DNA of 64,000 nt from Nocardioides marmorisolisilvae (GTDB taxonomy: Bacteria; Actinomycetota; Actinomycetes; Propionibacteriales; Nocardioidaceae): positions 62,001 through 126,000 of the forward strand of contig NZ_CP134227.1 of NCBI RefSeq assembly GCF_031656915.1, written 5' to 3'. Shown here piece after piece: positions 53,453-55,785 of the stretch. Both the position numbers and the translations under genes were made by a program. Each line of letters begins with the position of its first letter. Position 1 is the stretch's first letter. A model generated the notes under the pieces. That model was not told the origin of the DNA and searched no databases. It saw nothing but the letters and a program-made list of their open reading frames with translations.

Positions 53453-54970
53453 TCACCCTGGCGGAGCCAGGTCCTCGACGGCCAGCGCGCCGAACACCAT
53501 CGCGCTGCCCAGCGGCGCACCCGGCCCCGGGTAGACGGCTCCGAACACCGAGGCTGCACCGTTGCTCGTCGCGTAGAGCCCGGCGATCGGCCGGCTCTGG
53601 TCATCGAGCACCCGGGCCGCGGCGTCGGTGACCAGGCCGCCCTTGGTGCCCAGGTCCGAGAGCACGAACTGCGCGGCATAGTACGGCGGCCGGTCGATGG
53701 GGGTCAGTGCCGTGTTGGGCCCGTCGCCGCCGGCGAAGAACGTGTCGTACTCGTCGCCCCCGCGCCCGAAGTCCTCGTCGACGCCGGTGGTCGCGAAGTC
53801 GTTGAACCGGGCCACCGTGGCCGGCAGGTCGGGCAGCCCGAGCACGTCTGCGAGCTCCTCGAGCGCGTCCGCACGCACCCAGGTGCCGCCGGCGAGGTGC
53901 GCCTCGGGGTCGCCCTCGGGCATCGCGATCGCGGGAAGTCGGCCGGCCTCGCGGTCGTCGAAGACGAACCACGACGGCACCCGGTCCGCCGACCTCGCCA
54001 TCTCACGGCCGAACCGGTCGTAGGGCAGGCACTCGTTGGCGTAGCGGTGCCCGGTCTGGTCCACCATCAGCCCGCCGCGGAAGCCCAAAGTGAAGCTCCC
54101 AGAGCCATCGGGCTGCACCAGACCGGGGCAGAACCAGCCCTGGTCGAGCAGATCGGTCGCGGCTCCGATCTCGCAGGCCGCGGCGATCGGCTCGCCGGTG
54201 TTGGTGCCGGCGGGAGCCATCGACCAGCGCGAGTCGCCGGGCACGCCGTACTGGCTGCGCCACGGCTGGTTGTGCTCGAACCCGCCGGCCGCCAGCAGGA
54301 CGCCGCACCGGCCGTCGATCCGGACCCTGCCCGACTCACTGACCGCCTCGACCCCGACCACGCGGTCGTCCTCGACGACGAGCCGGTCCATGCAGTGGCC
54401 GGTCAGCACGGTGCCGCCGTCCCGGGTGAAGGCCCACAGCAGCCGGGCGATCAGCGCCTGGCCGCCGCTGAGGGTGTTGCGGCCGCGCTCTCCAGCGCGA
54501 TCACGCTCGATCGGCGGCCGGACCAGGGCAGCGACGACGTCGGGCAGGTCGGAGCGCCTGACCTTCACCGGTTGGATGGAGCGTCCCCCGCCGACGCGCC
54601 CCGGCGCGTCGAAGTACTCCGGGAACGGCGACCACTCGAACTCCATCGTGGGATCGTCCTCGAGCGCGGCGACGAGGCCGGGGGCCGTGGCAAGGAAGGC
54701 GTCGATCTTGATCGGGTCGGGGTCTGCGAGCACCGCGTCGAGATAGCTGCGCGCCGACTCGGTGGAGTCGGTCAGGCCGGCACGCTGCTGGACCTGCGAG
54801 CCGGGCAGCCAGCAGGAGCCGCCGGAGTACGCCGACGTCCCGCCGAGCAGTGCGGTCTTCTCGACCACCACGGTGGACAGGCCGCGCTTCTGGGCAAGGT
54901 GCGCCGCGGTCATGGCGCCCCCACCGGAGCCCACCACGACGAGGTCGAAGCGGGCGGGGGAGTCGGTCAT
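53453..54970 (-). CDS. kstD: 3-ketosteroid delta-1-dehydrogenase-like flavoprotein
   Basis: FAD enzyme of 505 aa. The dinucleotide motif VVVGSGGGAMTAA is at residues 12-24, followed by VVVEKTALLGGTSAYSGG. The C-terminal YPGPGAPLGSAMVFG (Tyr480, Gly484) is the KstD active-site/flavin signature; RYANECLPYDRFG and YYAAQFVLSDLGTKGGL are also typical. KstD removes hydrogens from C1-C2 of steroid ring A during sterol breakdown. A KstR-like operator 16 bp upstream of ATG 54970 supports a steroid role. GAAGGG before that ATG makes it the likely start; the longer frame would run through the operator. No other steroid gene is in the window. Confidence 0.85.
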   Translation of the reverse strand: MTDSPARFDLVVVGSGGGAMTAAHLAQKRGLSTVVVEKTALLGGTSAYSGGSCWLPGSQVQQRAGLTDSTESARSYLDAVLADPDPIKIDAFLATAPGLVAALEDDPTMEFEWSPFPEYFDAPGRVGGGRSIQPVKVRRSDLPDVVAALVRPPIERDRAGERGRNTLSGGQALIARLLWAFTRDGGTVLTGHCMDRLVVEDDRVVGVEAVSESGRVRIDGRCGVLLAAGGFEHNQPWRSQYGVPGDSRWSMAPAGTNTGEPIAAACEIGAATDLLDQGWFCPGLVQPDGSGSFTLGFRGGLMVDQTGHRYANECLPYDRFGREMARSADRVPSWFVFDDREAGRLPAIAMPEGDPEAHLAGGTWVRADALEELADVLGLPDLPATVARFNDFATTGVDEDFGRGGDEYDTFFAGGDGPNTALTPIDRPPYYAAQFVLSDLGTKGGLVTDAAARVLDDQSRPIAGLYATSNGAASVFGAVYPGPGAPLGSAMVFGALAVEDLAPPG

Positions 54971-54985
54971 CGCGAGCCCTTCGTC

Positions 54986-54999
54986 TAGAACACGTTCTA
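54986..54999. promoter_or_regulatory. KstR-like operator
   Basis: TAGAACACGTTCTA fits TnnAACnnGTTnnA, the binding motif of the TetR-type repressor KstR of sterol-degradation genes, and lies 16 bp upstream of the kstD-like start. Confidence 0.75.
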
Positions 55000-55065
55000 T
55001 TCCCCGGCTAGCCTGCTCCACCGGCGACTTGCCCGCAACCTGCACGGCGGTCGAGGGACGCCCCC

Positions 55066-55071: not shown

Positions 55072-55077
55072 GTGCTC

Positions 55078-55785
55078 ATGAGCAAGATCCTGGTCGTCCA
55101 GCACCAGTCGGACTGCCCGCCGGGGTGGTTCGGCGACTGGCTGCTCGAGGAGGGCTGCCAGCTCGACGTACGCCGTCCGGACCGCGGGGAGCCGGTCGGC
55201 GCCACGCCTCAGCACGTCGGTGTCGTCGTCCTGGGCGGGTCGCCGAACGCCCACGACGACGAGTCGGCTCCCTGGCTAGCGGCGGTGCGCGCGCTGTGTG
55301 CCGATGCGCTGGCTCGGGAGGTGCCGCTGTTGGGGATCTGCTTGGGTCATCAGCTGCTCGCCGTCAGCGTCGGCGGACGTTCGGTCCGCAATCCCGACGG
55401 CCAGCAGATCGGAGTGCTGCCCATGGGTTGGACCGAGACCGCTGGTGCCGATCCGCTCCTCGCCTCGCTTCCGGCGGTGGCGGTGCAGTGGAACCACGAC
55501 ATCGTCGTGGGCCTGCCCGAGTCGGTGCAGGTGCTCGCGCGAGCAGCCGGGGGAGAGGTGCAGGCTGCCCGGTTCGGCCCGACCGCATGGGGCCTGCAGT
55601 GCCATCCCGAGGCCGGCGCCCAGATCTGCGCGGCCTGGGCCGAGCACGATCGTGGGGAGTATGCGGCCCGCGGCGAGGACGTGTCGGCCTACGTCGACGG
55701 GGTGCGGGTCGCCGAGGTCGCCCTGGCCGATGCCTGGCGACCGGTGGCGACGGCGTTCAGTCGGCTGGTCCGGTCCCGGAGTTGA
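55078..55785 (+). CDS. Class I glutamine amidotransferase
   Basis: A 235-aa stand-alone class I glutamine amidotransferase of the GMP-synthase-like (COG0518) type. The nucleophile is in GICLGHQLLAVSVGG and the His-Glu pair in GLQCHPEAG. The oxyanion segment is VVLGGSPNAHDDE. Such stand-alone proteins hydrolyse glutamine or gamma-glutamyl compounds; the substrate is not predictable here. ATG 55078 has a leaderless -10. Its 3' end overlaps the convergent phosphodiesterase gene by 29 bp. Confidence 0.88.
   Translation: MSKILVVQHQSDCPPGWFGDWLLEEGCQLDVRRPDRGEPVGATPQHVGVVVLGGSPNAHDDESAPWLAAVRALCADALAREVPLLGICLGHQLLAVSVGGRSVRNPDGQQIGVLPMGWTETAGADPLLASLPAVAVQWNHDIVVGLPESVQVLARAAGGEVQAARFGPTAWGLQCHPEAGAQICAAWAEHDRGEYAARGEDVSAYVDGVRVAEVALADAWRPVATAFSRLVRSRS

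Follow-up and report, generated by a model that had tools for sequence, protein, structure and literature searches.

A putative KstR operator before a solitary kstD1 gene in Nocardioides, and a candidate operator of a dedicated TetR in sister genomes

The regulator KstR of mycobacteria and rhodococci recognizes the motif TnnAACnnGTTnnA and responds to cholesterol-derived 3-oxo acids, according to the passages of PMC5348764 accessible to us. For R. ruber the same passages report boxes before cyp450 and a start belonging to kstD1 itself 34 bp upstream of that gene, which counts against a KstR reading of kstD1, and they propose TATAAC as a −10 element inside the kstD3 box. In N. (Pimelobacter) simplex the kstD1 gene KR76_02655 lies outside the steroid clusters, has a predicted KstR site and is induced 5.2-fold by phytosterol, as given in the accessible parts of PMC7807495. 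These parts also report that induction was seen for only about one third of the operons for which KstR or KstR2 sites had been predicted, and that another kstD1 gene, KR76_27115, showed a stronger, 16.7-fold induction without a predicted site. A predicted box thus does not guarantee control.

The stretch of DNA analyzed here, called the window throughout, is 64 kb long and comprises bases 62001-126000 of a host genome that consists of a single 4.23 Mb contig; positions outside the window are given as genome coordinates. Its kstD1 gene resembles KR76_02655 as described in those parts of PMC7807495, in that both belong to the kstD1 orthogroup, lie outside steroid clusters and have a predicted KstR site. 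The two P. simplex loci in our collection that we infer to correspond to KR76_02655 differ from the window in their neighbors and in having degenerate boxes (TAGAACACGTTATC in L150 and TAGAACGCGTTATC in L162), whereas the window box is the full consensus. The host shares with the mycobacterial and rhodococcal regulon the motif, the type of regulator and the targets KshA, KstD, FadA5, CYP125, Hsa and YrbE-type proteins, but unlike that regulon it has one dehydrogenase gene that lies by itself, some 540 kb away from the cluster. Likewise, R. ruber kstD1 follows the cyp450 gene near fadA5 in the accessible text of PMC5348764, whereas the window kstD1 stands alone. Because KR76_02655 is published and 50 of 69 related loci carry a box (see below), a lone KstR-boxed kstD1 is already known in kind, and the interesting part is the comparison with sister species. 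Steroid manufacture relies on engineered kstD genes, and it is of practical use there to know that an isozyme is separately controlled, and by what.

The box and the kstD1 gene

The initial annotation had claimed an exact KstR-motif match directly before a gene with the KstD signature YPGPGAPLG, at a distance of 16 bp. The full 14-bp palindrome TAGAACACGTTCTA is indeed present and the signature occurs in the product; the spacing has to be corrected, as 15 bases separate the box from the ATG at 54970. The features of the locus are as follows.

54986..54999, no strand assigned: putative KstR-type operator, palindrome TAGAACACGTTCTA (exact match, matrix score, recurrence at related loci)
54977..54982, minus strand: Shine-Dalgarno-like GAAGGG, 6 bases before the ATG (a reading of the sequence)
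53453..54970, minus strand: kstD1-type 3-ketosteroid delta1-dehydrogenase gene, 505 aa (PDB KstD1 matches, catalytic residues, Pfam FAD_binding_2)
55072..55785, plus strand: class-I glutamine amidotransferase gene, divergent (Pfam GATase)

A mechanical open reading frame extends upstream of this ATG to a GTG at 55045. We prefer the ATG because KstD1 homology begins at residue 3 of the product read from this ATG and because the Shine-Dalgarno-like sequence precedes it.

The nearest solved structures to the 505-aa product are three 4c3x-type KstD1 sequences (4c3x, 8jbz and 8joj) at E about 1e-157, the best being 4c3x at 4.2e-157, and the next relative follows only at 1.5e-79. The product is 54% identical to the Rhodococcus enzyme 4c3x (271 identities over 499 aligned positions) and shares its four catalytic residues: Y119, Y317, Y480 and G484 align with Tyr119, Tyr318, Tyr487 and Gly491 in the R. 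erythropolis numbering, as listed in the consulted passages of PMC5348764. All four are invariant across an 11-sequence alignment that includes the window protein. The product falls below every cut-off of the NCBIfam ketosteroid dehydrogenase models, the best named model giving 423.4 against an annotation threshold of 789, and we count this against the KstR reading of the locus. A KstD3-type protein of the same genome (genome 731885-733588), which is 37% identical to the window KstD, exceeds its NCBIfam cut-off as a 3-oxosteroid 1-dehydrogenase (869.4 versus 788), and the models seem to have been built on other KstD types than that of the window. No deviation was seen in the base composition of kstD1. 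From these sequence comparisons the product is predicted to be a KstD1-type 3-ketosteroid dehydrogenase with the corresponding activity.

Across the 64 kb window the loose pattern TNNAACNNGTTNNA has a single match, the box at 54986-54999. Dinucleotide shuffles of the window contain on average 0.07 matches, with at least one match in 7 of 100 shuffles; the loose motif by itself, in one window, is only mildly unusual and makes a weak case. Our case is made by the full palindrome, its position, its genome-wide company and its conservation. Regarding position, the exact palindrome lies close to the start of its putative target, as in operators of the KstR regulon. In a leave-one-out matrix analysis of 29 intergenic sites, which were hand-chosen such that the intergenic exact matches at genome 936092 and 2973840 were excluded and six one-mismatch sites were included, the window box ranks first at 26.76 bits, and it is also the highest-scoring site across the 672,432 bases scanned. 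A scan for sigma-70-type promoters around the box found none, which counts against the KstR reading.

We propose that the palindrome is a KstR operator that switches a single-gene transcription unit, kstD1, encoding a KstD1-type dehydrogenase, and that a sterol-derived ligand releases KstR; we consider this highly probable. Without sterol, KstR would occupy the box, on or next to the promoter, and block RNA polymerase, possibly by covering the promoter −10, as the upstream half of the box (TAGAAC) is similar to TATAAC. Oxidation of the cholesterol side chain would then produce 3-oxo-4-cholestenoic acid or a CoA thioester, either of which could release KstR and so allow kstD1 to be expressed together with the distant sterol cluster. 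KstD1 is predicted to introduce the C1-C2 double bond into ring A; ring B is opened in two steps, and this is one of them.

The nearest neighbors of kstD1, among about 10 scanned, encode a sigma-70-type factor, the class-I amidotransferase and a phosphoesterase, and all other KstD homologues of the host genome lie outside the window. The earlier statement that the gene is far from other steroid genes in the window agrees with this and with the distance to the sterol cluster. Only 72 bases separate the box from the start of the divergent amidotransferase gene, and the box may have a side effect on it. We considered the amidotransferase as part of the steroid system and dropped this idea, as homologues are found in 14 of the 23 other genomes of the genus, among them all six that have no KstR match; the gene probably stands outside the steroid system.

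Recurrence of the box before kstD1 and its history

Named genomes were scanned with two short peptides chosen from aligned sequences of the genus; 70 of 165 candidate stretches were confirmed and 69 kstD1 loci obtained, a set in which more distant orthologues are missed. One locus is from Saccharopolyspora and the rest are titled Nocardioides, Marmoricola, Pimelobacter, Aeromicrobium or higher groups; ten of the 69 belong to genus genomes that are also discussed below (G005-G007, G011-G013, G016-G018 and G020). A box with at most one mismatch lies no more than 60 bp from the start of kstD1 at 31 of the 69 loci, compared with 8 of the 567 further genes that these loci contain. Another 19 loci have a box with two mismatches, bringing the count to 50 of 69 versus 11 of 567, where some of the control genes may be true targets or divergent neighbors with a box in common. 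The boxes lie 8-34 bases before the kstD1 start. Of the remaining loci, ten are TetR operons without a box, six are lone kstD1 genes without a recognizable box and three are cut; the ten boxless operons and six boxless lone genes count against the KstR reading. Such recurrence in independent orthologues speaks against a chance match.

Around the boxed loci, 51 in number when the cut locus L170 is included, a helicase gene is found in 28 cases, another conserved block in 17 and neither in six, and no counterparts of the window sigma factor or amidotransferase were seen among the five listed neighbors of each related locus. Because these neighborhoods differ, the box and the gene seem to travel as a single unit.

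Among 24 genomes of the genus, 12 (the host included) have a kstD1 orthologue, the other 11 being 69-75% identical to that of the window; a thirteenth match, in G009, has 41% identity. A KstR match is found in every one of the 12, and the six genomes without KstR are also without kstD1. In ten of the 11 other genomes kstD1 is the last gene of an LLM-TetR-kstD1 operon, where LLM denotes an F420-type protein of family TIGR03619. These ten are G005, G006 (N. marmorisolisilvae, L098:7401-10504), G007, G011-G013, G017, G018, G020 and G021; in G012 the TetR gene is cut by the start of the contig, and a separate contig carries the LLM gene. Most of the operons are near GlnE-like and release-factor-like genes, as named by eye. 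No KstR box was found at the operons, either with up to one mismatch across the operon stretches or with up to two mismatches at distances of at most 700 bp from kstD1 and 250 bp from the LLM gene. The eleventh genome, G016, has a lone kstD1 with the box TAGAACACGTTCTT.

In a tree of the 69 rows, from which L166, L170 and L172 were dropped for a short or cut kstD1, the window kstD1 groups with the operon forms with support of 95/97, and the same grouping has support of 98/95 in a tree of 34 rows hand-picked from the 69, without the outgroup and the longest branches. The larger tree goes further and puts the window gene inside the operon group (90/43). This placement would fit a history in which the window kstD1 left a TetR operon, regained a box and came again under KstR, a history that is compatible with KstR control today. 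We consider it possible though doubtful. In the 34-row tree the placement is open, as an arrangement in which the operon forms make up a clade that excludes the window kstD1 loses only 0.48 log units (AU p 0.341, for a group named after the first tree had been viewed). Retention of the box from an ancestor is more likely than its regain, since a lone kstD1 with a box is found at more of the 69 loci than any other arrangement, and retention needs fewer steps.

A KstR-like regulator, the sterol cluster and other boxes in the host genome

The initial annotation had read the box as a sign of a sterol-degradation regulon in the organism. It had named a kstR gene and further boxes as the things to look for, and the lack of any KstR homologue as what would speak against it. 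The host genome encodes a KstR-like TetR protein at genome 750738-751352, within a sterol cluster, as well as a KstR2-like regulator at 693428-694018. The former matches PDB KstR 5cw8 at E 7.5e-57, with a helix-turn-helix almost identical to that of the PDB protein in the alignment. Against the NCBIfam KstR model NF033703 it scores 266.6 bits, slightly below the cut-off of 280, a curated limit for annotation rather than for biology, and the next-best model gives 40.4 bits; we count this score against the KstR reading. The protein is a probable KstR orthologue. A weak box, TGGAACGTGTTTCT (genome 750691, L011:10691; 16.0 bits), lies 33 bases before its gene and suggests that the gene is autoregulated.

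The cluster holds CYP125, KshA, FadA5, HsaA, HsaC and HsaD about 540 kb from the window gene. Boxes precede the genes for KshA (655 kb; gene identity E 9.9e-161) and CYP125 (680 kb; E 4.6e-168), as well as those for FadA5, EchA19, KstD3 and HsaA, with HsaC and HsaD following in the HsaA gene run. FadA5, EchA19, KstD3, HsaA, HsaC and HsaD all exceed their curated cut-offs (six of six), and a boxed MlaE/YrbE-type permease at 764 kb is below its own.

Further boxes are also present genome-wide, where the exact motif occurs 38 times versus 10 times for a reversed-pattern control. Compared with script-called genes, 13 of the sites are inside and 25 are between genes, and for 23 of these 25 (all but 447393 and 936092) a gene starts at a distance below 60 bases, distances that depend on starts from our own gene caller trained on the host genome. 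Sites with one mismatch to TAGAACNNGTTCTA include 665947, 680393, 718998, 764862, 1715634 and 3778335. The window kstD1 is located at 117 kb, the next full-consensus box at 560 kb and the main cluster from about 655 kb onward. The KstR regulon of the host thus very probably extends well beyond the sterol cluster, and KstR control of kstD1 is, as a prediction, well supported.

Additional boxes are found near the starts of scattered genes, namely an old-yellow-enzyme-like gene (1935408), a short-chain dehydrogenase gene (2602889), a phosphotransferase-like gene (2692851), an FAD enzyme gene (2696988) and a gene for a ChsH2-like OB protein (3778335). Others near gene starts are at 1785705, 3145149, 3148943, 3444839 and 3449046. 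The scattered boxed genes are candidates for further outlying members of the regulon.

The second perfect box, TAGAACGCGTTCTA at genome 560210-560223 (L005:15211-15224), lies 11 bases before the gene of an F420-type LLM oxidoreductase and shares its intergenic region with a divergent TetR gene. Another palindrome, CTGGACATCTGTCCAG, is present in the same region.

Divergent TetR genes often autoregulate, and the host genome contains 47 TetR_N matches. Given a full-consensus box between the 560 kb pair, the box before kstD1 could be the site not of KstR but of a different TetR-family regulator whose palindrome is similar, such as the LLM-adjacent TetR. We regard this as improbable and rank it second. 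A like box precedes the genes for KshA, CYP125, FadA5, KstD3, HsaA, the YrbE-type permease and, weakly, KstR itself, all typical of KstR. The box also recurs before kstD1 at 50 of 69 loci, and CTGGACATCTGTCCAG is the better candidate site for the 560 kb TetR.

That the palindrome is a functionless chance 14-mer before an ordinary FAD enzyme gene is scarcely credible: loose matches do arise in some window shuffles and about a third of the exact genome matches (13 of 38) fall inside called genes, but the window box has the full consensus and the top score of the sites examined, and a box with no more than two mismatches precedes kstD1 far more often than it precedes other genes of the same loci.

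A candidate operator of a dedicated TetR in sister genomes

With KstR as the preferred regulator in the host, the sister operons are of particular interest. The host orthologue of their LLM gene is the solitary gene at 560 kb with the perfect box, and the LLM gene of G023 has the box TAGAACCTGTTCTA; other LLM copies outside operons have a two-mismatch box (G009 and G014) or none. Within otherwise unalignable DNA, the operon promoters (nine sequences) share an invariant stretch, the imperfect palindrome TCATTGAnnnCnCTATGA. Exactly one copy of TCATTGAnnnCnCTATGA is present in each of the ten operon genomes and none in the other 14, host included, with a reversed control also giving none. As the pattern was written after all ten promoters had been viewed, its presence there is by construction, and the test lies in the single copy and in the absence elsewhere. 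A search of the host genome for the operon TetR found only distant TetRs, the best at E 4.0e-5.

We propose TCATTGAnnnCnCTATGA as a candidate operator of a dedicated steroid-responsive TetR. This TetR resembles SRTF1, the TetR beside N. simplex kstD2 in the accessible parts of PMC7807495, in being encoded next to a kstD gene, and differs from it in that SRTF1 adjoins kstD2 whereas the operon TetR adjoins kstD1. Since the LLM family is named after Rv2161c, we also considered whether the operon TetR is an orthologue of BCG_2177c/Rv2160A; the passages of the paper accessible to us contain no operator and no gene comparison.

Relatives of the operon TetR at E 1e-40 or better occur in 30 of 394 genomes of the class. 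Because no match to kstD1 or LLM was found beside the TetR at these 30 loci (up to 1.5 kb on each side), the TetR also exists apart from kstD1. An exact TCATTGAn6TATGA lies immediately upstream of the TetR gene at two of the 30 loci, L220 (1492-3176) and L223 (407-2097). In L220 the gene opposite the TetR resembles a 3-ketosteroid 9alpha-hydroxylase oxygenase (4qdc, E 2.3e-32) but is only 28% identical to the host KshA, and the gene opposite the TetR in L223 begins like this Rieske oxygenase gene. With up to two mismatches, at least one palindrome site is present in 13 of the 30 loci and none in the other 17, as compared with about 0.55 hits expected from letter-shuffled loci. By hand count, each of the 13 has a site no farther than about 0.2 kb from the TetR gene at its upstream end. 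Outside the genus, in Saccharopolyspora sp. HNM0986 (L146), an LLM gene diverges from an FAD-TetR-kstD1 run around TCATTGAAGCACCTATGA, which differs from the TCATTGAnnnCnCTATGA pattern at one fixed position.

These observations lead us to a further hypothesis, for and against which we find the balance about even. In the sister lineage kstD1 and the F420/LLM gene would have left the KstR regulon and joined into LLM-TetR-kstD1, with TCATTGAnnnCnCTATGA as the site of a dedicated TetR, while KstR and other boxes were kept. The window species would represent the state before this handover, in which each of the two genes is a KstR target by itself. The operon TetR would belong to an undescribed class of steroid-responsive repressors, encoded at other loci across from a KshA-like Rieske oxygenase gene. 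This possible handover is the less expected part of our finding. Our literature search, which covered listings, abstracts and passages and for the most part did not reach subscription papers, found no published account of a handover from KstR to a TetR, and such silence is weak evidence of novelty. The sister comparison amounts to a natural experiment on how a catabolic gene comes under a new regulator: the same enzyme in the same genus, with KstR present on both sides, has a regulon-wide operator in one case and, in the other, an operator that occurs as a single copy next to a TetR of its own. In N. marmorisolisilvae and N. pocheonensis the candidate sites for the operon TetR are TCATTGAGTCCTCTATGA and TCATTGAGTGCACTATGA.
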